Origin: Photorhabdus khanii NC19
Lineage (GTDB): Bacteria > Pseudomonadota > Gammaproteobacteria > Enterobacterales > Enterobacteriaceae
NCBI RefSeq assembly: GCF_000517265.1
Contig: NZ_AYSJ01000009.1
Coordinates: 1-34,560 of the forward strand
Length of the DNA: 34,560 bases
Direction of reading: 5' to 3'
The translations under genes and the position numbers were made by a program. Position 1 is the stretch's first letter. The number at the start of each line of letters is the position of its first letter. The notes below the pieces were generated by a model. The model was given only the letters and a program-made list of their open reading frames with translations. It was not told the DNA's origin and did no database searches. This document shows positions 4,285-34,560 of the stretch, one piece after another.

Positions 4285-5175
4285 TTATTTTTTAATAACC
4301 AGCTCCAGTTCTACAGGAATAACAGCATCAACTTTTTTGCCTTTCAGCACCTTGTCCGCTGTCTGAATGCCAATGATACCAATCTGATCAGGACGCTGAG
4401 CGATTGTCGCGCCTAATTTCCCACCTTGAACAGCTTTGATACCCTCTGCCGTGCCATCAAAACCAACAACTAATACATCTCTTTTACCTGCTGTCTGTAA
4501 AGCACGCAGAGCCCCCAACGCCATCTCATCATTCTGAGCAAATACAGCTTGTATAGCCGGATGAGCTGTCAGTAAGTTCTGCATAACATTCAAACCCTTA
4601 GTACGGTCAAAATCAGCGGGCTGACTAGCCAGCACATTAAGCTTATGTTCTTGTACTGCTTTATTAAATCCTTCACCACGTTCACGGACAGCAGAAGTGC
4701 CAGTAATACCTTCTAACTGAATAATGTTGGCTTCATTCCCTAATTTTTCAGCAATAAAATCACCCGCTATTTTACCACCTAGGCGGTTATCAGAAGCAAT
4801 ATGGCTGACAACCGTACCTTTATTCGCTATCCGATCGAGAGTAATTACTGGAATTTTCGCATTGTTAGCTATGATAATGGCATTACCTACAGCATCAGAA
4901 TCAGTTGGGTTAATCAGCATTAGTTTAGTACCACGTACCGTCAAATCCTGAACATTAGCTAGTTCTTTCGCTGGATTATCCTGAGAATCCAATACAATTA
5001 GGTTATAGCCCAACTTATCCGCCTCTTTTTGAGCACTCTCTTTCATGGAGACAAAAAATGGATTATTTAGTGTAGAAATGACTAGCGCGATAGTATCTTT
5101 CGCTAACGCATTTACACTTATAGTCGCGCCTAGTACAACAGCAGATAAAATTGTGACTAATTTCTTCATTCTCAT
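4285..5175 (-). CDS. rbsB: Ribose ABC transporter periplasmic binding protein RbsB
   Basis: A 296-residue secreted solute-binding protein (periplasmic binding protein type 1). The signal peptide is clear: a basic start (MRMKK), a hydrophobic core and a probable cleavage after VNALA, leaving a mature protein beginning KDTIALVIS as in E. coli. The body carries the conserved [15 protein letters not shown] and [19 protein letters not shown] stretches that form the ribose pocket and the interdomain hinge. It binds D-ribose and delivers it to RbsAC; in E. coli the same protein also feeds the Trg chemoreceptor. It lies 24 bases downstream of rbsC. Confidence 0.97.
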
Positions 5176-5199
5176 TATATTATTTCCTGTAGGATGAGG

Positions 5200-6171
5200 T
5201 TATTTACCACTTTTGTTATCAACCAGAACTGCCAGCAATATTACACTTGCTTTAACAATCATCTGGTAGTTAGAAGAAATACCTAATAAATTTAAGCCAT
5301 TATTTAAAAAACCGAGGATTAGCGCACCAATCAAAGTCCCCGTAATTAATCCCTTACCACCAGCCAGACGGGTTCCGCCCAAAACGACAGCAGCAATAGC
5401 ATCCAATTCATAACCACTCCCCGCCATTGGTTGAGCCGAAGAAAGACGGGCCACTTCAATAATACTTGCTAATGCCGTCAGTAAACCGCATAAGGCGTAA
5501 ACGATAATCTTGATTTTATCGACACTGATACCAGACAAACGGGTAGCCGATTCATTACCACCCAGAGCATAAATATAACGACCTAAGCGGGTGTGGTGCA
5601 GGAGATACCATGCAATAACAAAAATGATCAACATCAGCCATATTGGAGTAGGAATTCCCAATGGGCGACCAATACCAAACCAGCCAAACAGATCCGCATT
5701 ATTACTGAATCCTGTATTTATTGGGCTACCATCAGTATAGACGCGGGTTATTCCACGAAGTAATAACATCATGACCAAAGTGGCAATAAAAGCCTGTACT
5801 TTACCTTTAGCAATGATTATTCCTGTACAAGCACCGATCGCAGTACCTAAAGCCAAAGCCCCCACTACAGCCACCAGCGCATTAACTTCCATACCAACCA
5901 ATGAAGCGGCTACTGCGCCTGTTAATGCAAGCAATGAACCAACAGACAGATCAATACCCGATGTTAAAATAACCAATGTCATCCCAACTGCCATAATGGC
6001 ATTGACTGATGTCTGTTGCAGAATATTAAACAAGTTATTTAACGTGAAAAAATTTGAGCTAAGAGAAGAAACTACGGCTATCAATACTAACAACGCAATC
6101 AATGACTTTTGCTTCAGTAACCACTCTTTAGTAAACCAACGCTTAGATGTCGGTGATATGTTCGAATTCAT
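5200..6171 (-). CDS. rbsC: Ribose ABC transporter permease RbsC
   Basis: A 323-residue inner-membrane permease of the BPD_transp_2 (RbsC/XylH/AraH) family. It has multiple hydrophobic segments and the family loop SGIDLSVGSLLALTGAV (about residues 70-86). A cytoplasmic coupling stretch near AIAAVVLGGTRLAGGKG (about 255-275) contacts the ABC subunit. Length and sequence closely match E. coli RbsC (321). The start codon lies six bases after the rbsA stop, which suggests coupled translation. Confidence 0.96.
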   Translation of the reverse strand: MNSNISPTSKRWFTKEWLLKQKSLIALLVLIAVVSSLSSNFFTLNNLFNILQQTSVNAIMAVGMTLVILTSGIDLSVGSLLALTGAVAASLVGMEVNALVAVVGALALGTAIGACTGIIIAKGKVQAFIATLVMMLLLRGITRVYTDGSPINTGFSNNADLFGWFGIGRPLGIPTPIWLMLIIFVIAWYLLHHTRLGRYIYALGGNESATRLSGISVDKIKIIVYALCGLLTALASIIEVARLSSAQPMAGSGYELDAIAAVVLGGTRLAGGKGLITGTLIGALILGFLNNGLNLLGISSNYQMIVKASVILLAVLVDNKSGK

Positions 6172-8148: not shown

Positions 8149-8176
8149 AATATAGAAAGTAACATTTAAAATGCAA
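8149..8176 (-). promoter_or_regulatory. Predicted sigma-70 promoter of the rbs operon
   Basis: Read on the minus strand: -35 TTGCAT (8176-8171), a 16-base spacer, and -10 TATATT (8154-8149). The transcription start would be near 8142, directly abutting the RbsR operator. Spacing and position fit repression by RbsR and activation from the upstream CRP-like site. Confidence 0.65.
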
Positions 8177-8193
8177 CATTAATAATACAAAAG

Positions 8194-8219
8194 TGTGATC
8201 GTTATCGATAACGTTTCGA
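8194..8219. promoter_or_regulatory. CRP half-site and possible second RbsR-like operator
   Basis: TGTGA at 8194-8198 is one perfect CRP half-site; the second half (8205-8209, TCGAT) is poor. The centre, about 8201.5, lies near -60 from the predicted rbs start, the usual class I CRP position. Overlapping it is the palindrome CGTTATCGATAACG (8200-8213). TCGATAACGTTTCGA (8205-8219) has one half close to the RbsR operator (CGTTTCG), so an auxiliary operator about 80 bp from the main one is possible. E. coli rbs is known to be CRP-activated; binding here is inferred. Confidence 0.42.
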
Positions 8220-8376
8220 CAATAAAAAAACCAAAAATAAACGTTAACTGATTGAATATTTGACGCTGAATCGATTTTTAAGGTAAATATAGTCTTCATC
8301 AATAAATGATGATTAAAATCTATGAAGAAGAATGATTAGATTTTATTTATCCCAACAGATAACATTGGTATGAATT

Positions 8377-9876
8377 ATGCGAACAGTGGAAAAAATAGCT
8401 TGTTTAAGTAACTATCTGGAGAGTGGTCTGTATGAAAGACAACTGACGATTCGTTTATGCCTGCTAGCTGCACTGTGCGGGGAAAGCGTTTTCCTGCTTG
8501 GTCCCCCAGGGATCGCGAAAAGTCTGATAGCCCGCCGATTAAAATTTGCGTTTCGTGATGCCAGAGCATTTGAGTATTTGATGACCCGTTTCTCCACTCC
8601 CGAAGAAATTTTTGGTCCTCTTTCTATTCAGGCATTGAAAGAAGAAGGACGTTATCAGCGACTGACCACTGGCTATTTACCTGAAACTGAAATTGTCTTT
8701 CTCGATGAAATATGGAAAGCAGGCCCGGCAATTCTCAATACCTTGCTGACTGCAATTAACGAAAGAAAATTCAGGAATGGGGATACAGAAGAGAAAATTC
8801 CGATGCGATTACTGATAACAGCATCTAATGAATTACCTGAAACAGATAGCAGCCTTGAGGCTCTTTATGACCGAATGCTAATCCGTATTTGGTTGGATAA
8901 AATTCAAGAAAAACAGAACTTCCGGGCACTACTTACTAACCAAAAAGATGAAAATGATAACCCTGTCCCAGAAAATATTCAGATAACAAGTGAAGAATTT
9001 CATCAATGGCAACAAGAGATTAATAAAATAGTCCTACCAGAGAATTGTTTTGATATTATCTATCATCTACGCCAGCAACTTGATGCAACAGAACATTCAC
9101 CTTACGTTTCAGATCGGCGCTGGAAGAAAGCAATTCATTTATTACAAGCTAGTGCTTTCTTCAATGGCAGAAGAGAAATATCGCCACTTGATTTAATATT
9201 GTTGAAAGATTGTCTGTGGTATGATCTTCACTCTTTCAAATTATTACCTCAATATCTGAATACTCTCATGATCGAACAAGCCTATCAGCAAAGAGTATCA
9301 TCTCAGCAAATTGATTCACTTTATCACCAATGGATTCAAGCCCGTCAGGATAAAAATAATCAGCAGGCGTTGTACCTGGAAAAACAAACAGGCTTGTTTG
9401 GACGCAAAATACAATATTCGCTACCCGATCACATCAATGAAGAAAAATTGACTTTGTTCCTGCATACACCTCTTCATATCCATGATATTCAAGTTAATTT
9501 TATTGAAGCGGAAAAAAAGATGCTAAATACCTGGATAAATAAAGGTGGAAGTTTACCAGCCCGCTTGAACGGTATCGGTTTTCCACAAGATATAGCAGCC
9601 GAAATTAATTCAGCACATCAACCAGAGATTTTTGATATTAGCCGTCGTTCCTCTACTTTATATTTACCGGATAGTCAATATCAACAAAACGAAAAAAACA
9701 GCGAGTGGTTGGAAAAACTGGAAAAAATTAACCAAGAGATTCACCATCAACGCCAATTATTTAGTCAGCATCAACCATGTATATTCATTGAAAACCATTG
9801 GGTTGCTGCAATAGAACAAAGTTTTATCCAACTGACAGATAAAATCAACCAGTTGAAAATAAAAATGGGCAGTTAA
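8377..9876 (+). CDS. ravA: MoxR-family AAA+ ATPase RavA
   Basis: A 499-residue AAA+ ATPase of the MoxR branch (E. coli RavA is 498). Walker A is GPPGIAKS (42-49), Walker B EIVFLDE (105-111) and sensor 1 the Asn in LITASNELP (about 151). The C-terminal part, including the LARA-type domain, is present at full length. In E. coli RavA forms hexamers, works with ViaA, binds the lysine decarboxylase LdcI and is linked to respiratory complexes and aminoglycoside sensitivity. viaA follows after three bases, so the pair is co-translated. The ribosome site before the ATG is weak. Confidence 0.95.
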
Positions 9877-13875: not shown

Positions 13876-15765
13876 ATGTTTTATCCAGAGCAATTTGACG
13901 TCATCATTATCGGTGGTGGTCACGCCGGTACTGAAGCTGCTATGGCAGCTGCTCGTATGGGCCGTCAAACCTTATTACTGACTCACAATATTGATACTTT
14001 GGGCCAAATGTCATGTAACCCAGCTATCGGTGGGATCGGTAAAGGACATCTGGTTAAAGAAATTGACGCTCTGGGCGGCTTAATGGCTAAAGCCACTGAT
14101 CAGGCTGGTATTCAATTTAGGACCTTGAATGCCAGTAAAGGACCCGCTGTTCGCGCAACACGTGCTCAAGCTGACAGAGTTCTTTACCGTCAAGCCATAC
14201 GAACAGCATTAGAAAATCAACCTAACTTAATGATTTTCCAACAACCCGTAGAAGATCTCATTGTTGAAAACGATACTGTCACTGGTGCAATAACTCGTAT
14301 GGGACTTAAATTCAGGGCCAAAGCCGTTGTTCTGACAGTAGGTACATTCCTTGACGGTAAAATCCATATCGGTCTGGAAAATTACAGTGGAGGGAGAGCT
14401 GGTGATCCTCCTGCGATCTCATTAGCACAGCGTTTACGTGATTTGCCTTTACGTGTAAACAGATTAAAAACAGGTACGCCGCCACGTATTGATGCCAGAA
14501 CTATTGATTTTAGTCAGCTAACACAACAACTGGGTGATAATCCAACACCTGTATTCTCTTTTCTTGGAAATGTGGGACAACATCCACAACAGATGCCATG
14601 CTACATTACTCATACCAATGAAAAAACGCACAATGTGATCCGCAATAATTTAGATCGCAGCCCAATGTATGCAGGGATCATTGAAGGGATCGGCCCACGT
14701 TACTGCCCTTCGATCGAAGATAAAGTCATGCGTTTTGCGGATCGCAATGCTCATCAGATCTTTCTTGAACCAGAAGGACTGACCAGTAATGAAATTTATC
14801 CAAATGGTATTTCTACCAGCTTGCCATTTGATGTACAAATGCAAATTGTTCATTCCATGAAAGGGATGGAAAATGCCCGCATTATTCGCCCTGGTTATGC
14901 AATAGAATATGACTTCTTTGATCCAAGAGATCTGAAACAGACACTGGAAAGTAAATTTATTCATGGCTTATTCTTTGCCGGGCAAATCAATGGTACGACT
15001 GGTTATGAAGAAGCTGCCGCTCAAGGGCTTTTAGCCGGACTTAACGCAGCCTGTTACGCTTCAGAAGAGGAGGGGTGGTTCCCTCGTCGTGATCAAGCTT
15101 ATATTGGTGTTCTGGTTGATGATTTGTGTACTCTGGGCACTAAAGAACCATACCGTATGTTTACTTCCCGGGCTGAATATCGCCTGATGTTACGTGAAGA
15201 TAATGCTGACCTTCGTCTGACAGAGAAGGGCCACGAATTAGGATTGGTGGATGATTACCGCTGGGAACATTACTGCCGTAAAGTGGAGATGATCGAACAG
15301 GAACGTCAGCGTTTGCGTAATATTTGGATTCATCCTCATTCAAATAATCTTGGTGACATCAACAACATATTAAAAATGCCATTATCGAAAGAAGCTAATG
15401 GTGAAGATCTATTGCGTCGCCCTGAAATAAATTATGAAATACTAACTTCATTACCACTGTTTTCACCTGGTCTTAAAGAACCGCAAGCAGCTGATCAGAT
15501 TGAAATTCAGGTCAAATATGAAGGGTATATTGCCCGTCAACAGGAAGAAATTGAAAAACAATTGCGTAATGAAAACACGTCATTACCGGTTGATCTTGAT
15601 TACCGTCAAGTTAGTGGTCTTTCTAATGAAGTTGTCGCTAAACTTAATGATCACAAGCCAAACTCAATTGGTCAGGCTTCACGCATTTCAGGGGTAACAC
15701 CTGCTGCAATTTCGATTTTACTTGTATGGCTGAAAAAACAGGGCTTACTGCGCCGTAGTGCCTGA
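13876..15765 (+). CDS. mnmG: tRNA uridine-5-carboxymethylaminomethyl modification enzyme MnmG (GidA)
   Basis: A 629-residue FAD- and NADH-dependent enzyme, identical in length to E. coli MnmG. With MnmE it places the carboxymethylaminomethyl group on wobble U34 of several tRNAs. The Rossmann FAD motif [17 protein letters not shown] starts at residue 13. Conserved [21 protein letters not shown], the cysteine in RYCPSIEDK and the C-terminal helical tRNA/MnmE-binding domain ([10 protein letters not shown]...PAAISILL) are all present. AAGG lies about 10 bases before the ATG. It borders oriC and is followed after 13 bases by rsmG. Confidence 0.97.
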
Positions 15766-25468: not shown

Positions 25469-25540
25469 GGGGACCGGCAAAGCCGGAAAACAATCAGGTT
25501 CGTGACATATAAAGGGCTTTCATCAGCCCTGTTTTTAGGA
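25469..25540 (+). promoter_or_regulatory. glmU-glmS leader with two hairpins
   Basis: The 107-base gap holds a perfect hairpin CCGGC-AAA-GCCGG (25474-25486) and then AGGGCT/AGCCCT (25513-25518 with 25525-25530) followed by GTTTTTAGGA, which contains the glmS ribosome site. In E. coli the glmUS mRNA is processed after glmU, and the sRNA GlmZ opens an inhibitory hairpin before glmS. The layout here fits that scheme, but the pairing itself is inferred. The second stem with its T-run could also cause partial termination. Confidence 0.45.
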
Positions 25541-25549
25541 ATAAAACTG

Positions 25550-27379
25550 ATGTGTGGAATTGTTGGTGCAGTAGCACAACGAGATATTGCTGAAATCCTG
25601 ATTGAAGGGCTTCGTCGTTTGGAATACCGTGGTTACGACTCCGCTGGGCTGGCGGTTGTTGATAACGAAAATAATATGCTTCGCCTGCGTGAAGTCGGTA
25701 AGGTGCAAATACTTGCTGATGAGGTTGACAAGCAACCAGTCCTTGGTGGGACAGGTATTGCTCACACCCGTTGGGCTACACACGGTGAACCAAACGAGAA
25801 AAATGCTCACCCGCATATATCTGATTATATTGCTGTTGTTCACAACGGCATTATTGAGAATTACGAAGAATTGCGGATTCAGTTAATTGAGCGCGGTTAT
25901 CAGTTTACATCAGATACTGATACAGAAGTTATTGCCCACCTTGTTCATTGGGAGCAAAAACAGAGTAGTACTTTGCTGGAGGCTGTCCAGCATGTTATTC
26001 CTCAACTTCGTGGTGCTTATGGCGCAGTTATCATGGATAGCCGCGATCCTGGAACAATAATCGCTGCGAGATCGGGTAGCCCTCTTGTTATTGGCTTAGG
26101 CGTTGGGGAAAACTTCCTTGCATCTGATCAATTGGCTCTGCTGCCAGTTACCCGTCGTTTTATCTTTCTTGAAGAAGGTGATATTGCGGAAGTAACTCGC
26201 CGTACTGTGCATATTTTTAATACTCAGGGCGAACCGGTTGAACGGGAGCAGATCGAGTCCAATATTCAGTATGATGCTGGTGACAAAGGTGTTTACCGTC
26301 ACTATATGCAAAAAGAGATCTATGAACAGCCAATGGCAATCAAAAGTACTCTGGAAGGGCGCTTAAGCCATGGGCAGGTAGATTTGTCTGAACTTGGCCT
26401 TAATGCAGCTGAATTGTTATCTAAAGTTGAACATATTCAGATTGTTGCCTGTGGTACATCCTATAACGCTGGTATGGTTTCCCGTTACTGGTTTGAAGCA
26501 TTGGCGGGTATTCCTTGTGATGTGGAGATTGCTTCTGAATTCCGTTACCGCAAATCAGCACGTCGTCCAGGAAGCTTATTAATTACATTGTCTCAATCAG
26601 GTGAAACAGCAGATACACTGGCAGCACTGCGTTTATCCAAAGAGCTTGAATACCTCACATCGTTGACGGTTTGTAACGTAGCAGGCTCTTCCTTGGTGCG
26701 TGAATCTGATTTTGTTTTGATGACCAAGGCTGGTGCAGAAATTGGCGTTGCTTCAACTAAAGCGTTCACAACCCAGCTGACAGTATTGCTAATGCTGGTG
26801 GCTTATCTTGGGCGTTTAAAAGGTGTTAATGCTGAACAGGAGCAAGAAATTGTTCATGCATTACATGCACTGCCAAGCCGCATCGAAAGCATGCTGTCGA
26901 AAGATAAAATTATCGAGGCGCTGGCAGAAGATTTTTCTGATAAACATCATGCTCTATTCCTTGGCCGTGGTGATCAGTATCCGATTGCGGTTGAAGGTGC
27001 GCTGAAATTAAAAGAAATTTCTTACATCCATGCAGAGGCTTATGCCGCAGGCGAATTAAAACATGGCCCATTGGCACTGATTGATGCAGATATGCCAGTC
27101 ATCATTGTAGCTCCAAATAATGAACTGCTGGAAAAATTGAAATCCAATATTGAGGAAGTACGTGCTCGTGGCGGATTGCTATATGTGTTTGCTGATCAGG
27201 ATGCGGGTTTTACAGACAGCGAAGGAATGAAAATCATCCCATTACCACATGTTGAAGAACTGATTGCTCCAATATTTTATACTGTGCCGTTGCAACTGCT
27301 CTCTTATCATGTTGCGCTGATTAAAGGAACTGATGTTGATCAGCCTCGTAACCTGGCTAAGTCAGTGACTGTAGAATAA
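25550..27379 (+). CDS. glmS: Glutamine-fructose-6-phosphate aminotransferase GlmS
   Basis: A 609-residue enzyme (E. coli 609) that makes glucosamine 6-phosphate from fructose 6-phosphate and glutamine, the entry step to amino-sugar synthesis. The N-terminal glutaminase needs the cysteine exposed by removal of Met, here [13 protein letters not shown] therefore chose the ATG at 25550, preceded by AGGA, not the earlier in-frame start at 25502. Two SIS isomerase domains follow (CGTSYNAG and [31 protein letters not shown]) and the C-terminus is LAKSVTVE. Confidence 0.98.
27331..27379 (+). other. attTn7: Tn7 target sequence (attTn7) in the glmS 3' end
   Basis: The last 49 bases of glmS encode [17 protein letters not shown], the conserved segment that TnsD recognises in other bacteria. 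The insertion point would fall about 25 bases past the stop, inside the glmS terminator. No Tn7 end or duplication is visible there, so the site appears unoccupied. Confidence 0.6.
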
Positions 27380-27990: not shown

Positions 27991-28282
27991 ATTTTATTTG
28001 TAATTATCTTGAGAATAACTAATCTAACCTAAACTTTGTTTGAGAAGGGAGTTAGCATCATTAAATTCCAGATGAAGAAAAGTTATATTTTACGCAAAAT
28101 GAAACCTTATAAATGTTTGCTGTATAGTCTAGAATTAAACCTTCAATTGGTTGTTATTGCTACAAATCTACCCTAAAAAATAGTTCATAATTTACTCTTA
28201 TTAACGTATTTCTCTATAAACCATTATCTTGGTCATTTATTGATACCCGAATATAGCCAATCTTCGTCATGTGTAACCCTGC

Positions 28283-28367
28283 TTAATACCAATAAGAGAC
28301 TATTTTTATGGGAATTATCATGGATTGAGCTATTTTGTAAAATATAGTTTAAAAGAAGCTGCTAAAC
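28283..28367 (+). repeat. Left copy of the 85-bp inverted repeat flanking the fibre cassette
   Basis: Begins TTAATACCAATAA and ends GCTAAAC. By hand alignment it matches the reverse complement of 29408-29493 with about 14 differences and one single-base gap. It contains the degenerate crossover site at 28333-28357. Confidence 0.85.
28333..28357 (+). other. Degenerate invertase crossover site (left)
   Basis: This 25-base stretch occupies the place of the right-hand site in the inverted repeat. It keeps the outer arms TTTTG...AAAA and GTTTAAAAGAA, but the central CCTTGG is replaced by TATAG and one base is missing. The two-base crossover core of this recombinase family is thus lost. Confidence 0.6.
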
Positions 28368-28832
28368 GTGATATAGGAAACAAAGGTAATCAGATTCCAG
28401 ATGCCTGTTTTTTTCCAGTAATTTCAGTGATGATAAAGGCTGGTGGATGAGTCCTAATGGAATTATAGAACAGTATGTAAAAGTCATTTTGACAAAGAGC
28501 GATGTACATAATCGGAGTAATACGCATCAAGAAAGAATGAAAAACATATCTTTTCCAATTGTTTTTCCTGTTGCTTTTCTTGGTGCATCGGTGACTAATC
28601 TTGATACTCCCTGGATTTATATTGAAACATCATGGGTGTCAGATGTAAGTAAAACTTCGATTACTGTGTGGGCTGGAATTTATCTTCCAGTAAACAGAAA
28701 TGATGTTTTGTCAGAATCAGATGTAACAATTTATTTGCGAGTATGGGGGAAATAAAAAAACCTTGTTGAAGTCGATCAGCTATGACTCGCATAACTACTA
28801 TTAACTGTTTCAATCAATAGTTATTGCAGAAT

Positions 28833-28921
28833 AATATCCACCATTGCCATAACTAACAAAAAGACCGGGGATAGAATGTATAGTGCCCGGTCTTCCTTTA
28901 AGTTACGATAATGGTGGAATT
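28833..28921. repeat. Long imperfect palindrome between the fibre fragments
   Basis: The arms of about 36 bases (28833-28869 and 28886-28921) share TCCACCATT/AATGGTGGA, TAAC/GTTA and AAGACCGGG/CCCGGTCTT around a 16-base loop. It lies centrally in the 28756-29075 gap, where I see no gene. It could be a small palindromic repetitive element or simply the shared bidirectional terminator of the two opposing fragments. Confidence 0.6.
28856..28894 (-). terminator. Intrinsic terminator, minus strand
   Basis: The perfect 9-bp stem AAGACCGGG/CCCGGTCTT is followed on the minus strand by TTTTTGTT (run through 28856), so it should end leftward transcripts from the right fibre fragment. On the plus strand the following bases are TCCTTTA, a weaker stop. 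Confidence 0.65.
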
Positions 28922-29075
28922 GGTCAGTCAATCTCTAGTATTTTTGAAATACCAATTTGGTTAACTATTCCATTCTTCGTTCATCAGAATGTTTTGCATG
29001 ATAGGGCAAATTTTTCATAGAAAGATAACCAGCTTTTAACGTATCTGGGTGAAAACCCTAAGTTGTTGAGTATAT

Positions 29076-29441
29076 TTAATACCCAATAGCTATAATAAGT
29101 GGATAACATAGACCTTGACTTCCTGTACCAAACCATTGTGGGAATACTTTTACTTCTGAATTAGTCCAAGAGGATACTTGAAACACTTGATCCGAGAACT
29201 TGGTGTCATCGCCTTTTGTTGCGGTTAGAGCTATTAAGCACATATTCGGGAAAGCAAGTGGAAACTGTAATACTGGGTAAGTTACATCTTCTTTATTACA
29301 AATTGGGCCTGTCATCCACTGAAATATCCACTTCTTTGGTACACCATTAACTATCATAGGAATAGTTATATAACCATCGGAGTTTAATAATCCTTCAGCA
29401 GCAGCTAGTTTAGCCCCTTCTTTTAAACCAAGGTTTTTCAA
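29076..29441 (-). pseudogene. Tail-fibre 3' fragment (right cassette, opposite orientation)
   Basis: 121 codons open from a TTG, beginning LKNLGLKEGAKL. This is the same motif as in the left fragment, so the TTG is unlikely to be a true start; TAA closes the frame four codons upstream. The C-terminal part has YPVLQFPLAFPNMCLIALTA, SSWTNSEVKVFPQWFG and ends IIAIGY, matching the gp53-like fibre C-terminus (xFPxxFPxxC...xxxAIGY). It faces the left fragment tail to tail. It would become an expressed fibre tip only if joined to an N-terminal fibre part by inversion or recombination. Confidence 0.72.
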
Positions 29442-29493
29442 AATTAGTTAATCCGTGATAATTTCTATAAAAATAGTCTTTTATTGGTATTAA
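29408..29493 (-). repeat. Right copy of the 85-bp inverted repeat
   Basis: Reverse complement of the left copy at 28283-28367, with about 14 differences and one gap. It ends 12 bases before the invertase start codon, so the repeat also covers the promoter region of the invertase. Confidence 0.85.
29418..29443 (+). other. Hin/Gin-family (dix-type) crossover site
   Basis: A 26-base site of the enteric DNA-invertase type. It has the central AAACCAAGGTTT, with AA as the two-base crossover core, flanked by TTCTTTT on the left and TTCAAAA on the right. By memory it matches the Salmonella hixL site at about 22 of 26 positions. In the reverse reading it encodes the fibre motif LKNLGLKE, as is usual for invertible fibre genes. 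It lies 62 bases from the recombinase start. Confidence 0.82.
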
Positions 29494-29505
29494 CAAGGAT
29501 CACAC

Positions 29506-30078
29506 ATGGCAAAGATTGGCTATATCCGGGTGTCAACAAATGACCAAAACAGTGATTTACAGAGAAATGCGTTGATAAGTATAAATTGCGGGCAGATTTT
29601 TGAGGATAAAATCAGTGGAAAAACAGCCAATAGACCGGGTTTAAAAAGGGCTTTAAAACAACTTAAAAAAGGCGATACTTTAGTCGTTTGGAAATTGGAT
29701 CGACTAGGGCGTAGCGTAAAAAATATGGTCACTTTGATTTCTGACTTAAGTGAACGTGGTGTTCATTTCCAGAGCCTGACTGACAGTATTGATACCAGTA
29801 CCTCTATGGGGAGATTTTTCTTTCACGTTATGAGTGCACTGGCTGAAATGGAACGGGAATTGATCGTTGAAAGAACAAATGCAGGATTGATAGCAGCCCG
29901 AGCTCAGGGGAGAATTGGTGGCAGACCAGTATCGTTTTCATTTGCTGAACAACAACAAGCCGCGAGATTACTGGCGAAAGGCCACACACGGAAGCAGTTA
30001 TCATTAATTTACAACACATCGTTATCTACGATATATAAATATTTTCCGGTAAATAAAATGGATTGTTCATCAGCTTAA
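29506..30078 (+). CDS. Serine DNA invertase of the Hin/Gin/Pin family
   Basis: A 190-residue site-specific recombinase. The N-terminal resolvase domain has the nucleophile Ser10 in YIRVSTNDQNSDLQR and the conserved arginines in KLDRLGRSVKNM (about 65-76). It also has the long E helix with MERELIVERTNAGL and a C-terminal helix-turn-helix (about 140-185, HTRKQLSLIYNTSLSTIYKY). Length and architecture are those of Gin, Cin and Pin, which invert segments between dix sites with Fis. AAGG lies seven bases before the ATG. With a crossover site just upstream and two opposed fibre tips beyond it, its role was to switch tail-fibre specificity. Confidence 0.93.
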   Translation: MAKIGYIRVSTNDQNSDLQRNALISINCGQIFEDKISGKTANRPGLKRALKQLKKGDTLVVWKLDRLGRSVKNMVTLISDLSERGVHFQSLTDSIDTSTSMGRFFFHVMSALAEMERELIVERTNAGLIAARAQGRIGGRPVSFSFAEQQQAARLLAKGHTRKQLSLIYNTSLSTIYKYFPVNKMDCSSA

Positions 30079-30094
30079 TATTTGCAGGGCAATT

Positions 30095-30110
30095 AACTAA
30101 ATGTTTAGTT
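30095..30110. other. AT-rich palindrome AACTAAA-TG-TTTAGTT
   Basis: Perfect 7-bp arms around a two-base centre, 17 bases after the invertase stop. The loop is too short for a good RNA hairpin, so a protein-binding site is more likely. A related half, TTTAGT, occurs at 30988-30993 upstream of the CI gene. The rest of 30111-30361 shows no convincing gene. Confidence 0.35.
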
Positions 30111-30361
30111 TTATACTGTGTAACACTCAAGAGTAATTTATGCAAAATATATTGTTTTTCTTTTCCAAGTGGAAAACGTTAGCACTGTTCTACAAAAAAC
30201 TAACAGATGAAGACAAAAACCCGATATGCAAGTACTGCTGGCAAAAAAAAAGCTTATTGTATGTGAAATCCACTGCATCAGGGCATTCTTGAACAAAAAA
30301 TTGCCATTAAGCATAGGATTTACATACTTGAGAATTGATTTATTAACAATGGAAAAGGTTG

Positions 30362-30949
30362 TCAGCACCTGGAAATCATTAGGCAAACTCGACCAATGAA
30401 ATTAATTTCATTAATTGCACAGTCAAAAGTTACATCGTGATCACAGACACGAATTTTACCGCCCGGGATTTTTATGATCTTTTTAATGCTATGCATCCCT
30501 TCAATATCAATCAACCATAAACCATCCTGAATATCAGGTTCTTCTGCATCCAACAAATACCAAGAGTTGTTGTCATCAATAATGAGAGGTTTTTTAATTT
30601 CTCCGGCGATAAGTTCATTATCTAAAATTACAGGGTTTTCAACATTCAGCCTTCCTCCTACTAATTTAACGCGTGGGATTGTCGGTGCAATAATATTTTC
30701 TAAAGATTCTTTTTCCTTTTCTCCATCAGGGAACATTTCTCCTTGTCCTGTGCTTAGCCATGACAATGAAGCATTAGTTTCAAGATTGCATTGAATAATC
30801 CAGTCTGCTGGAAAGCTATCTCTTAAATAACGATTTGCCATTGTACTCTTAGACACACCCAAATGGTCGCTAAGTGCCTGACGTGATTTGAATCCATATG
30901 CATGGACAAGACGCTCGATAGCTTGTTTTCCTCCACTATCTGCACCCAT
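30362..30949 (-). CDS. Phage CI repressor, coliphage 186 type
   Basis: A 195-residue repressor with an N-terminal phage CI HTH (RLVHAYGFKSRQALSDHLGV then SKSTMANRYLRD, about residues 12-45) and the NASLSWLSTGQGEMF linker motif. The C-terminal oligomerisation domain (about 85-190) is close to 186 CI in GLWLIDIEGMHSIKKIIKIP and INEINFIGRV. 186 CI is not self-cleaved in SOS; it is inactivated by the DinI-like antirepressor Tum. I prefer the ATG at 30949, with AGAG seven bases upstream, over one at 30976 without a ribosome site. It faces away from the LexA-controlled genes and probably represses the tail operon. Confidence 0.82.
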   Translation of the reverse strand: MGADSGGKQAIERLVHAYGFKSRQALSDHLGVSKSTMANRYLRDSFPADWIIQCNLETNASLSWLSTGQGEMFPDGEKEKESLENIIAPTIPRVKLVGGRLNVENPVILDNELIAGEIKKPLIIDDNNSWYLLDAEEPDIQDGLWLIDIEGMHSIKKIIKIPGGKIRVCDHDVTFDCAINEINFIGRVCLMISRC

Positions 30950-31034
30950 TTTTATCTCTGTTATGTTTTTTTTCATTAAAAGTACAGTTTAGTGAGTTTG
31001 TTATCTTCACAAAGCTCTCTGATTAAGAACTATA

Positions 31035-31223
31035 GTGATCCTAAATGAATTTATTAGAATATTGCATCATGAACACTCAAATTTCAATCTGTATATATAT
31101 CATCCAAATAATGGGAAAGAATTTTTCAAGTTTAAAAATAAGAAAAATTTATCAATTATAGGGAGTTGCGATCGAAAAGAAACCTTTTTAATAATTAATT
31201 ATTTCAATAAAAACAATAATTAA
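31035..31223 (+). CDS. Doubtful small hypothetical ORF
   Basis: 62 codons from a GTG, rich in Asn, Lys, Ile and Phe (ends NYFNKNNN). It lies divergent to the CI gene, in the place where lambdoid and 186-like phages carry cro or apl, but it shows no helix-turn-helix pattern and no clear ribosome site. Its composition follows the local AT-rich DNA. I give it low weight. Confidence 0.2.
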   Translation: MILNEFIRILHHEHSNFNLYIYHPNNGKEFFKFKNKKNLSIIGSCDRKETFLIINYFNKNNN

Positions 31224-31295
31224 TATATTAACACTATCAAATATAGTTATCAAAAAAGATAAGAAACTACTTTAACTTTTTCTAATCAACGTGTA

Positions 31296-31311
31296 CTGTT
31301 CTTATATACAG
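31296..31311. promoter_or_regulatory. LexA box (SOS operator)
   Basis: CTGTTCTTATATACAG is an exact CTG-N10-CAG with an AT-rich centre and is flanked as TACTG...CAGTT, close to the LexA consensus. It lies 22 bases before the small gene at 31333. DNA damage would release LexA and switch on the small gene and the DinI-like frame after it. Confidence 0.82.
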
Positions 31312-31332
31312 TTATGTTATACGGAGGTAAGT

Positions 31333-31515
31333 TTGTCAGTGGACTTTCTTATGGAATCAGTAATAGCGCAACGTATTAATTTTATCGCCAGAATGGCAAC
31401 AAGCTGTGAATGTAATCATGCTGAAGATAAAGAACTGGCTTTAGCTTGGATTGCTGAGTTATCAACACCACTTGCAAAACAACTTGTTAACCATCACGAA
31501 ACGCTTGATGAATAA
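31333..31515 (+). CDS. Small SOS-controlled protein of unknown function
   Basis: 60 residues if it begins at TTG 31333, which is five bases after a perfect GGAGG (31323-31327). GTG at 31339 and ATG at 31351 are in-frame alternatives; starting at the ATG gives 54 residues beginning MESVIAQRINFIARMATSCE. The protein is helical and acidic near the middle, with a CECNH cluster, and continues ELALAWIAELSTPLAKQLVN. I do not recognise the family. Small proteins of similar build occur in the early region of P2-like phages. The LexA box just upstream places it in the SOS response. Confidence 0.6.
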   Translation: MSVDFLMESVIAQRINFIARMATSCECNHAEDKELALAWIAELSTPLAKQLVNHHETLDE

Positions 31516-31550
31516 GTGTAACAAAAGAATAAATGTGATAGGTAAATGAT

Positions 31551-31646
31551 ATGCATTTGGAAATTCTATTTGATAAAAAATCTAAATTTTCTCAGTCAGT
31601 TATGATTACATTGAAAAATGAACTGAAAAATAGATTTTTCTTATGA
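31551..31646 (+). pseudogene. Truncated DinI/Tum-like reading frame
   Basis: 31 codons: MHLEILFDKKSKFSQSVMIT then LKNELKNRFFL and TGA. The start, a short beta strand with MxxEI followed by a helix with LKNELKNR, resembles the first third of DinI/TumB-family proteins (about 80 residues). The second strand and the C-terminal helix are missing. After the stop the same frame goes on FSKSEKTIVEL, possibly a relic. AGG lies eight bases before the ATG, and the frame sits 35 bases after the small SOS gene. In phage 186 a DinI-like protein (Tum) relieves CI repression. Assignment rests on a short match. Confidence 0.4.
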
Positions 31647-31678
31647 TTCAGCAAATCTGAGAAGACGATAGTTGAACT

Positions 31679-31700
31679 AGCCACTGGAAGGTGGCTTTTT
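31679..31700 (+). terminator. Intrinsic terminator of the SOS transcript
   Basis: AGCCAC (31679-31684) pairs with GTGGCT (31691-31696) around TGGAAG, followed by a run of T to 31700. It closes the LexA-controlled unit before the tail genes. Confidence 0.8.
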
Positions 31701-31753
31701 GTTTTCGTTTGTACTATTCCCTTAACAATGTTGCCTGGTTGTTTCTTCCTATC

Positions 31754-31773
31754 TTGTTAGCACACCATAACAC
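31754..31773 (+). promoter_or_regulatory. Possible Ogr-type activator site before gene X
   Basis: TTGT-N12-ACAC contains the TGT-N12-ACA pattern of P2 Ogr/Delta sites. The best -10 (TAATAT, 31796-31801) would place it near -44, not the usual -55, and P2 has no late promoter at this point, so I rate it low. Confidence 0.28.
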
Positions 31774-31815
31774 TCTAATTTAATAAAATTTTCTGTAATA
31801 TAGAGGGGATACTTA

Positions 31816-32052
31816 ATGAAAATAATTTCACAGCAAAATGATACTGTTGACGCTTTATGCTGGCGTCACTATGGCCGAACTCAAGGTATGACTGAACGAG
31901 TTTTAGAAGCTAATCCAGGGTTGGTTGAACTGGTATTTAAAAAATTCCCTGAATTGTCTGAATATAGCGTAATCCTGCCACATGGCACTGAAGTCGAAAT
32001 GCCAGAGGTTATATCAGCCACAACAAAACCTATTCTGCAACTATGGGATTAA
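31816..32052 (+). CDS. P2-type tail protein X (LysM-like)
   Basis: A 78-residue homologue of phage P2 gpX (67 residues), a small LysM-like tail protein needed for tail assembly. It has DTVDALCWRHYGRTQGMTER, VLEANPGL and ILPHGTEVEMPE in the P2 order and ends LQLWD. About ten extra residues (roughly VFKKFPELSE) lie between NPGLVEL and the LPHG motif. A strong AGGGG at 31804-31808 precedes the ATG. In P2 the lysis genes, R and S follow X; here they are absent and V comes next. Confidence 0.9.
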   Translation: MKIISQQNDTVDALCWRHYGRTQGMTERVLEANPGLVELVFKKFPELSEYSVILPHGTEVEMPEVISATTKPILQLWD

Positions 32053-32248
32053 AGATAACAGACGGATAAAGACAACCATATTACCTTGATTGCTTTTTCA
32101 ACAGAATTATTACCTTATATTAGGAATCGTCAACAATCAAGCCAAGTAAAATTACCTGTAACACTGTACCCAGTATTTGGTCAGGTAGTACAAAATTGAA
32201 ATTCTTTTAATTATCGTGTCAAACTCTGACTATAACTATAGATTATAT

Positions 32249-32285
32249 AAAAGCCTTTCTCAATTGTGGGAAAGGCTTTTTAATT
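32249..32285 (+). terminator. Intrinsic terminator between X and V
   Basis: AAAAGCCTTTC (32249-32259) pairs with GAAAGGCTTTT (32270-32280), an 11-bp perfect stem with a 10-base loop, followed by TAATT. It separates the X transcript from the V-W-J transcript. The 368-base gap 32053-32420 also holds the Ogr-like site and a 46-codon open frame without a start (32059-32199). Confidence 0.85.
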
Positions 32286-32317
32286 CATATTGTTATAGTT
32301 TTTCCCTCCCAAGAAAT

Positions 32318-32337
32318 TTGTCTGATCTTTCCTACAA
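32318..32337 (+). promoter_or_regulatory. Ogr-type late promoter site (PV-like) before gene V
   Basis: TTGT-N12-ACAA, the symmetric pattern of P2-family Ogr/Delta activator sites (TGT-N12-ACA). Centred at 32327.5, it predicts a start near 32382 (-55 spacing), 38 bases before the V start codon, with a poor -10 around 32371-32376. P2 likewise has its PV promoter directly before V. No ogr gene is in the window, so the activator must be elsewhere. Confidence 0.55.
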
Positions 32338-32420
32338 TTCACCTTTAATGTCTACCGCTACCTTTAATGTCATTCTTCCAAACATAAACCCATAACTACC
32401 TATATGGCATTTTTCCGAAT

Positions 32421-33260
32421 ATGGATACACAACTAACAGAACTTCTACGCTTATTGCGTAACCTGATCAGAACTGGTGTTGTTACTGAGGTAGATCATGC
32501 CCGAGGTATGTGCCGGGTCGCGACAGGTAATCTTAAAACTGACTGGCGGCCTTGGTTGACAATGCGAGCAGGTCATTCCCGTACCTGGTGGGCCCCCAGT
32601 GTTAGTGAGCAGGTTTTATTACTATCCGTTGGTGGAGAGCTGACCACCTCCTTTGTATTACCGGCTGTTTATTCCGATCGATTTCTAGCTCCATCAGTTT
32701 CTTCCGAAGCTGTCCATATTGCTTTCCCTGATGGGGCCGTAATGGTGTATGAGCCGAAATTCGGTGCCTTAACCGTAAAAGGTATTAAGACTGCTAATGT
32801 GCAAGCTTCATATTCCATAACACTTGAGGCAACGAATATAACACTAAAAGCACACGATAAAATCTCAATGTCGGCAAATAACAAAATTGGATTGACATCG
32901 CAAAACGAAATCTCAATGTTGGCAAATAACAAAATTGGATTGACATCGCACAACGAAATCTCAATGTCAGCAGATAACAAAATTGGATTGAAATCGCACA
33001 ACGAAATTTCAATGGGAGCAGACATCAAAATTGGACTAAATGCAAAAAAATCACTTTCACTGAGCTCACATGAAGTCAAGTGTGAAGCAAAAAAAGAAAT
33101 GGAATTGAAAGCACCAGAACTGGCTCTGAAAGGAAAAACTAAACTGGAAGGTGATGTTGAAAATACCGGCGGAAAACTCAGCTCTAATGGTGTGACCCTA
33201 CATTCTCATAAACACACTGGAGTCATGTCCGGCGGTGCAACAACAGGAGACCCAACATAA
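32421..33260 (+). CDS. P2-type baseplate assembly protein V (tail spike)
   Basis: A 279-residue homologue of P2 gpV (211 residues), the trimeric membrane-piercing needle at the tail tip. The N-terminal OB-like domain (about 1-95) keeps the P2 features IRTGVVTEVD, DWRPWLTMRAGHSRTWWAPS and GELTTSFVLPAVYS. A triple beta-helix follows from about residue 110. The apex carries LHSHKHTG (His261, His263, His265), the HxH motif that binds iron in P2. The extra length is a 4 x 16-residue tandem repeat (145-208). There is no clear ribosome site before the ATG. Stop and the W start overlap as TAATG. Confidence 0.93.
   Translation: MDTQLTELLRLLRNLIRTGVVTEVDHARGMCRVATGNLKTDWRPWLTMRAGHSRTWWAPSVSEQVLLLSVGGELTTSFVLPAVYSDRFLAPSVSSEAVHIAFPDGAVMVYEPKFGALTVKGIKTANVQASYSITLEATNITLKAHDKISMSANNKIGLTSQNEISMLANNKIGLTSHNEISMSADNKIGLKSHNEISMGADIKIGLNAKKSLSLSSHEVKCEAKKEMELKAPELALKGKTKLEGDVENTGGKLSSNGVTLHSHKHTGVMSGGATTGDPT
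32853..33044 (+). repeat. Four tandem 48-bp repeats inside the spike gene
   Basis: Four in-frame 48-bp units encode 16 residues each: HDKISMSANNKIGLTS, QNEISMLANNKIGLTS, HNEISMSADNKIGLKS and HNEISMGADIKIGLNA. The DNA is nearly identical between units 1-3 (AACAAAATTGGATTGACATC recurs) and more diverged in unit 4. Each unit probably adds one or two beta-helix rungs, lengthening the spike. Confidence 0.92.
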
Positions 33261-33601
33261 TGATGTATATTGGAATGAACAGGCAAACTGGCCGCAGCCT
33301 GACGGATTTGGCACATGTGCGGCAATCTGTCAGCGATATCTTATCAACACCAGTAGGTAGCCGTGTGGAACGGCGTACTTATGGTTCTCTGTTACCTGAA
33401 TTGATTGACTGGCCACAGAATGCAGCTCTGCGTCTGCAAGTTATGGCAGCCAGTTATACAGCGATCAGCCGCTGGGAACCGCGCATCAATCTGACATCTA
33501 TAACCATCAATACCCTACAAGACGGCAAAATGACGGTAGATATAGCCGGCCATTATCAGCAGTCCGCCGGAGCGTTTTCTCTATCCATCCCTGTGAGGTA
33601 A
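33260..33601 (+). CDS. P2-type baseplate wedge protein W
   Basis: A 113-residue homologue of P2 gpW (115) and T4 gp25, a lysozyme-like fold that initiates sheath assembly at the baseplate. Visible are MNRQTGRSLTDLAHVRQSVS, ILSTPVGSRVERRTYGSLLP, the EPR of SRWEPRINL (the EPR core motif of the gp25 family) and the C-terminal strand. It overlaps V by one base (TAATG). ATG 33263 is an alternative start. Confidence 0.94.
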   Translation: MMYIGMNRQTGRSLTDLAHVRQSVSDILSTPVGSRVERRTYGSLLPELIDWPQNAALRLQVMAASYTAISRWEPRINLTSITINTLQDGKMTVDIAGHYQQSAGAFSLSIPVR

Positions 33602-33605
33602 AACA

Positions 33606-34560
33606 ATGCCAACCATTGACCTGAGCCAATTGCCACCACCTGATGTAGTCGAGCCACTGGACTATGAAAGCCTGTTAGCTGAACGCAAAGCTGAATTGAT
33701 CTCTCTTTACCCTGAAGAACAACGAGATGCTATTACTCGAACATTGGAACTGGAATCTGAACCTCTGGTTAAATTACTTGAGGAAAACGCTTATCGGGAA
33801 TTGATATTGCGTCAGAGGGTTAATGAAGCTGCCCGTGCAGTAATGCTGGCTTATGCAACTAACGGCGATTTGGACCAATTGGGAGCGAATTACAACGTTA
33901 CTCGGGCAGTTATGGAACCGGATAATACCTTCCGTGATCGAATCCAAAGAGCCTTTGAAGGACTAAGTGTTGCAGGTCCGATAGGTGCGTATGAATATCA
34001 CACCCTTAAAGTTAATGAAGGTATTCATGCTGATAAAGATGAATATAAAGGTGAATATCAAACTGTAGCGGATGTTTCCGTCATCAGCCCATCTCCTGCC
34101 AATGTGACTGTAACTATTTTGTCACGGAAATGGAAATGGGAAAAAGGTAAAAAAGATGAAGAGGATACAGAACATAAAGGCGTGGCTTCACAAGATTTAC
34201 TGGATAAAGTGGTTGTAGCACTTAATGACGAAAATGTTAGACCAGTTGCTGATCGGGTAAAAGTACAGTCAGTACAAATAGTGGAATACCAGATTGATGC
34301 TGTGCTTTATCTCTATCCGACACCTGAGTCTGAACCTATCCGTAAATTGGCTCAACAAAATATGGATAAATATGTGCAAGATCAACATAAGTTGGGAAGG
34401 GATATCCGGCTATCTGCCATTTATGCCGCACTGCATGTGGCTGGTGTACAGCAGGTGGAACTAAGAGCACCGGCGAAGGATATTATTTTATGCAAAGATC
34501 AAGCTTCTTATTGCACCAGCGCAAAACTGGAACTGGGTAAAACTCAAACTTCCGATTGTT
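33606..34560 (+). CDS. P2-type baseplate protein J (partial, runs off the window)
   Basis: At least 318 codons are open to the window end. It starts MPTIDLSQLPPPDVVEPLDY, as in P2 gpJ (302 residues), the baseplate wedge protein related to T4 gp6. The conserved RQRVNEAARAVMLAYATNGD, LDQLGANYNVTR, FRDRIQRAFEGLSVAGP, RPVADRVKV, DIRLSAIYAALHVAGVQQVE and DQASYCTS follow. A charged insertion (KWKWEKGKKDEEDTEHKG, about residues 177-194) is not part of P2 J as I remember it. GAGG lies seven bases before the ATG, four bases after W. The stop should be just past the window. Confidence 0.92.
   Translation, partial: MPTIDLSQLPPPDVVEPLDYESLLAERKAELISLYPEEQRDAITRTLELESEPLVKLLEENAYRELILRQRVNEAARAVMLAYATNGDLDQLGANYNVTRAVMEPDNTFRDRIQRAFEGLSVAGPIGAYEYHTLKVNEGIHADKDEYKGEYQTVADVSVISPSPANVTVTILSRKWKWEKGKKDEEDTEHKGVASQDLLDKVVVALNDENVRPVADRVKVQSVQIVEYQIDAVLYLYPTPESEPIRKLAQQNMDKYVQDQHKLGRDIRLSAIYAALHVAGVQQVELRAPAKDIILCKDQASYCTSAKLELGKTQTSDC

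Follow-up and report, generated by a model that had tools for sequence, protein, structure and literature searches.

Probable inversion of a baseplate-operon body between stationary fibre tips at the R-tailocin locus of Photorhabdus khanii

The fibre switch at the R-tailocin locus of Photorhabdus khanii NC19 probably works by inversion of the whole baseplate-operon body, here named K, past fibre tips that stay in place, and in this species the switch is likely to have two sites. The window analysed here, of 34,560 nucleotides, comprises bases 1-34560 of contig C9 (195,187 bp). An earlier sequence-only reading of it had described a tail-fibre cassette locked by loss of one crossover site. The locked part appears to be one worn-out corner of a larger switch, which looked dead because the window ends 1.3 kb short of the partner site.

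The tailocin locus and the predicted invertible body

In the window, glmS (25502-27379) is followed by a fibre-switch region and then by a P2-type tail operon (V from 32421, W from 33260, J from 33606). By its genes, the locus would be a P2-type R-tailocin (photorhabdicin) in the glmS-asd interval. P2-like tail and baseplate genes at this place gave Pfam matches for V, W, I, H and a fibre assembly protein, and gene order and synteny agree. The names J and FI are presumed from P2 gene order. The features of the window are as follows.

28175..28270, minus strand: inverted invertase 5'-end fragment in the outer-left arm (tblastn 59% over residues 1-32, one stop)
28339..28350, plus strand: decayed outer-left crossover site AAAATATAGTTT, core destroyed
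28351..28755, plus strand: broken left-pocket tip, with an open frame at 28447-28755 that carries a Gp53-like C-terminal domain
29076..29441, minus strand: tip E, an alternative fibre tip pointing away from the centre site (Gp53-like_C; relatives 80-89% identical)
29418..29443, no strand: centre crossover site, 26-mer TTCTTTTAAACCAAGGTTTTTCAAAA, with an intact core AAACCAAGGTTT at 29425-29436
29431..34560, no strand: window part of the predicted invertible body K, which continues to about C9:35910
29506..30078, plus strand: Gin-type serine invertase (Pfam Resolvase, 2.1e-47, and HTH_7)
30362..30976, minus strand: CI-like phage repressor within K (Pfam Phage_CI_C and Phage_CI_repr)
32319..32336, plus strand: TGT-N12-ACA element upstream of V, inside K (motif scan)
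32421..33260, plus strand: gene V, baseplate spike (Pfam Phage_base_V)
33260..33601, plus strand: gene W, baseplate wedge gp25 (Pfam GPW_gp25)
33606..34560, plus strand: gene J, between W and I, cut at the window end

A run of 21 N lies inside gene J directly past the window end (C9:34561-34581).

The facing open reading frames at 28447-28755 (plus strand) and 29076-29441 (minus strand) both match Gp53-like_C (E values of 9.2e-6 and 8.6e-7), and thus both look like fibre C-termini. They lie tail to tail between inverted arms (28189-28354 and 29422-29587; 166 nt, 81% complementary) with the invertase adjoining, as had been read from the letters. That reading was also borne out in finding a good right site (29425-29436) and a left counterpart (28339-28350) with a destroyed core. 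Inversion within the pair around 28340-29440 is very probably impossible now. The left tip is broken as well: read from the left site, its frame ends after 36 codons, and a different frame holds the 28447-28755 ORF. A BLASTP comparison of this ORF with tips of more than 60 aa gave no match at E<=1.

The target fibre gene had been suspected to lie past J, beyond the window, and gene H is indeed found there (C9:35228-36367), with a stem (Pfam Phage_tail_fib and Phage_fiber_2) followed by a collar tip. The KNLGL codons of H, at the stem/tip border, carry a site (C9:35905-35916) that is a perfect partner of the 29425 site in opposite orientation, 1.3 kb beyond the window end. The centre and H cores are 6,480 bp apart; the two 26-bp sites are inverted, have matching two-base cores (both AA in the direction of the arm) and are alike at 21/26 positions. 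The genome search for further sites that had been proposed found AAACCWWGGTTT at 5 places in the 5.23-Mb genome, including the inverted partner in H, versus 2 for a reversed control, so that the motif by itself is not rare. What goes beyond chance is that two of the five places are inverted 6,480 bp apart in one locus, and that the centre and H sites are both intact in 12/12 genomes where both were read.

The other three matches lie elsewhere in the genome. One is at C14:106492, and one at C4:139074 was judged to be a chance match, being inside a 275-aa ORF (L014:880-1707) that does not look like a fibre. The match at C13:697505, well away from the tailocin locus, belongs to an orphan tip cassette: the surrounding stretch (L017, 1134-2272), which includes N bases, contains a solitary fibre-tip frame bearing a perfect AAACCTTGGTTT site, preceded by a degenerate 5' piece of an invertase.

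The invertase has a Resolvase catalytic domain and a C-terminal helix-turn-helix and is close to Gin, which places it in the Din (Hin/Gin/Cin/Pin/Min) family. It is 69% identical to Mu Gin, and its best PDB chains are 4m6f and 3uj3 ("DNA-invertase"; E<=3.5e-80). A crude consensus scan of 29441-30500 for a Fis enhancer gave 6 Fis-like matches, with no pair 46-50 bp apart. The invertase 5' fragment of the outer-left arm adjoins glmS in relatives too, and a third invertase 5' copy (68% over residues 1-22) lies to the right of the fibre genes, beginning at C9:37715. We infer that the locus invertase is the agent of inversion; other genomic invertases could act in its place. The best other copy in the genome, at C14:88169, is 84% identical and lies beside sheath-like genes of another contractile particle cluster (L011, C14:80001-99000, at 8160-8717); it could act on the same sites. 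A further phage-like cluster (L010, C7:8001-26000) has a second fibre gene with an NAFVKNLGL motif (4793-5293), and at C7:16268-16762 there is a broken invertase (65% identical, 3 internal TAG) with an invertase 5' piece adjoining.

As predicted, K (6,480 bp) holds the invertase, the CI-like repressor and, together with a late promoter element of its own, the V-W-J-I-H' operon. The Gin-type invertase within K would invert DNA between oppositely oriented sites. A flip between the centre and H sites would thereby turn V-W-J-I-H' together with promoter element, repressor and invertase, and the stem would gain the inner tip of the other pocket. With both outer sites decayed, the switch of the window's species would choose between tip A, now on H, and tip E (29076-29441). 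Such body flipping needs a promoter layout that tolerates inversion, and the locus has one late promoter element per operon. We take TGT-N12-ACA to be of the P2 late promoter (Ogr) type. The FI operon has its own such element at C9:37868, outside K, and the element was found before V in 13/13 loci and before FI in 11/11 (11 genomes each), with 0.08 expected per 260 bases. With separate elements for the V and FI operons, both would retain a promoter in either orientation of K.

From the loss of the left site, the sequence-only reading had further concluded that the locus is either fixed or useful solely as a tip donor. This is improbable. In its favour, the left tip and both outer sites are broken, and the genome's own assembly has a single arrangement, with each junction half found once except for a 2-mismatch match at the decayed left site. 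However, the centre site pairs with C9:35905, both sites of this pair are intact, relatives show both orientations, and tip E shares the reading frame of the H stem. Moreover, tip E gave dN/dS values of 0.13, 0.17 and 0.34 in three comparisons and looks kept by selection. The preferred reading, that K inverts between the centre and H sites, can be extended by inference to the window's own strain, where K would still be inverting.

Four-site form in relatives and its decay

We observed up to four sites of alternating direction in relatives, with two tail-to-tail tips in each complete pocket. The full form would consist of an outer-left (>), a centre (<), an H (>) and an outer-right (<) site, with K in the centre and a two-tip, tail-to-tail pocket on each side; a pocket flip would swap the tip that faces K. 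Across the genus, we lean towards a rotating-body switch in which one invertase turns a full baseplate operon between two fixed two-tip pockets, giving 16 arrangements (a number obtained by arithmetic for the four-site form) and access to any of four tips. It would be worn to two states in some lineages, including that of the window, and a one-base variant of the outer arm would mark the strand exchange.

Tip families (A = C0, B = C1, C = C2, D = C3, E = C4, F = C5, G = C7) shift site and side between species. G006 has the B/D pocket on the glmS side, whereas G007, G008 and G009 have it on the FI side, turned over in the case of G009. The A/G pocket is right in G002 and left in G003, and the A-like/F pocket is left in G002 and right in G003, where the A-like tip forms its own cluster. 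In P. australis, an identical 95-base tip start occurs just twice in the genome: on C43 it meets the centre arm, and on C11 the outer-right arm. C43 stops at the tip, so that only the tip start is visible. The outer sites are usually AAACCAAGATTT and the centre site AAACCAAGGTTT, the differing base being on the arm side of the core. This variant base stays with the arm during tip exchange, which places the exchange at the core.

The sequence-only reading had treated the left site as a former dix site, and the comparison of relatives agrees. The equivalent on the glmS side is recognisable in 10/13 genomes (AAACCAAGGTTT in 3, AAACCAAGATTT in 7), with 2 decayed and 1 lacking the arm; P. akhurstii, in which the glmS side is off the contig, is left out of this count. 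The left site thus appears to have been a real crossover site that was worn out in the window's species. The outer-right site is recognisable in 9/14 genomes (4 decayed, 1 absent), and both outer sites are lost in the window's species and in P. heterorhabditis. At four of the lost sites (right in G000, G001 and G005, left in P. heterorhabditis) only the arm half survives, breaking off no more than a base or two from the core. Faulty recombinase joining as the cause of these half-site losses is speculation on our part.

In G001 (L027, about 15374-15455), N bases occupy the stretch of arm from the centre site to the start of the invertase, which is where the centre arm departs from the outer arms; they are perhaps a mixed consensus of two arrangements. 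In G011 (L043, 6540-8788), the tail operons are lost and one pocket is kept between glmS and asd (tip E and family A type tips), with the deletion end within two bases of a site.

Orientation of K in the genus

The orientation of K was determined in 14 Photorhabdus genomes, from a DNA search over 12 of the genus with stretches from 11 relatives, plus two named assemblies, with glmS (left) or FI (right) as the reference point. It was as in the window in 7 genomes, opposite in 4, both ways in 1, unlinked in 1 and lost in 1.

K as in the window: G000, G001, G002, G005, G006, G010, P. akhurstii
K opposite: G003 P. australis, G008 P. namnaonensis, G009 P. noenieputensis, P. heterorhabditis
K both ways: G007 P. 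luminescens DSM 3368, with the assembly broken exactly at the sites
K unlinked: G004 P. caribbeanensis, in which a 6,418-bp contig (C67) is almost exactly K
K lost: G011

Of the genomes compared, the P. luminescens assembly comes nearest to direct evidence of both orientations in one culture. Its contig C16 aligns to its contig C9 without a mismatch for 5,368 columns (15 gap openings), after which it continues as the reversed far end of K (4,937 columns, 1 mismatch, 41 gap openings). These two pieces overlap by 22 bp, with the site within the overlap, and gene I is 100% identical on both contigs. The many gaps in C16 suggest a low-coverage contig.

The stem-tip junction is less variable than the rest of the locus. 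Tip family A is carried at 12/13 junctions (12 genomes; the G003 junction, on two contigs, was counted once), though K and other pockets turn over. Together with the one arrangement in the genome's own assembly, it counts against free switching. Whole-block inversions could instead come from homologous recombination between arms. In its full form, this explanation would have the differences between species as old structural changes, mostly inversions of this kind, with tip A fixed and the other tips being fossils. The frequency of tip A would fit, the arms share invertase 5' sequence, and apparently one whole-block inversion separates G002 from G003 in its C43 state. We nevertheless consider it unlikely, since P. 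luminescens has both K orientations with identical flanks and only 22 bp in common at the junction, and since the P. australis tip changed arms at the core. Moreover, dN/dS was 0.09-0.35 for families B, D, F, G and H, indicating that tips not joined to H are under purifying selection, among the pairs listed; for family A it was 0.11-0.63 among these pairs. The pairs listed for families A and B are only those with G000 or G006, and for family C there are none. That C16 of P. luminescens is an assembly artefact or a true second copy, which would leave two orientations in one strain unproven, is very doubtful: it is short (11,495 bp), has many gaps relative to C9 and duplicates glmS, and, in other species, repeats alone could account for the contig ends and N bases that coincide with sites, but a chimera is not expected to break exactly at both sites with inverted polarity, and K orientation differs among independent assemblies too.

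The genus forms a natural series that runs from four sites down to two, in which one may ask why tip A is at 12/13 junctions and what preserves the silent tips.

Comparison with known fibre switches

Inversion at the photorhabdicin locus is not new. According to the part of PMC2717986 available, the R-type pyocin of strain TT01 appears to include invertible regions that carry alternative tail fibre genes, and their arrangement is different in P. asymbiotica. For the tail locus of TT01, the available part of PMC2530875 mentions mixed subpopulations, citing a 2004 FEMS paper. The photorhabdicin locus of PMC2717986 is very probably the same as that of the window. The flipping segment and the number of sites are not stated in the available parts of either source. 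Excerpts of the literature on related fibre switches likewise contain no text naming the flipping segment, and the geometry may already be in print. The body-flipping geometry, the table of states and the reduction in the window's species are apparently new.

Two R-tailocins offer a comparison. Carotovoricin of Pectobacterium (Ein) has invertase-driven fibre inversion, as proposed here, according to the part of PMC13195805 available; there, the stem (the N-terminal half of the fibre gene) is in a conserved block outside the rearranged region, unlike in Photorhabdus K. The P2-type xenorhabdicin of Xenorhabdus has fibre-tip blocks inverted between sister strains, and the available part of PMC13280938 reports no invertase gene in any locus, unlike in Photorhabdus. 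Among 78 named loci, many of them cut by contig ends or by the 10-kb flank, an invertase match of more than 100 aa outside Photorhabdus was found in 3 (Dickeya oryzae L066, Mixta theicola L102 and Ca. Pantoea varia L103). In all three the invertase lies between H and FI, and the body-flipping layout is therefore seen only in Photorhabdus. The invertase fragment before FI and the working copy upstream of V in Photorhabdus suggest how this layout arose.

The closest known likeness is to the G segment of phage Mu (AF083977), which also has a Gin-type invertase, 26-bp sites and tail-to-tail tips. The centre site is 20/26 like Mu gix, and a site lies 81 bp upstream of the invertase start in the Photorhabdus locus and 73 bp upstream in Mu, whereas the two-base core is AA in Photorhabdus and GA in Mu. 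The Mu/P1 type has tips inside and the stem outside. In Mu the tips are in the flipping segment, with stem and gin outside it, whereas in Photorhabdus the predicted flipping segment consists of stem, baseplate genes and invertase: the conserved pair encloses stem and operon, with the tips outside. Pocket flips, where outer sites survive, would fit the Mu/P1 type. Min of p15B, from the same recombinase family, acts on several crossover sites and serves several tips, the stem staying put while only tip segments move, and in the P1 fibre switch the tips move past a fixed stem. In Photorhabdus, the body appears to move while the tips stay, the opposite of Mu, P1 and p15B.
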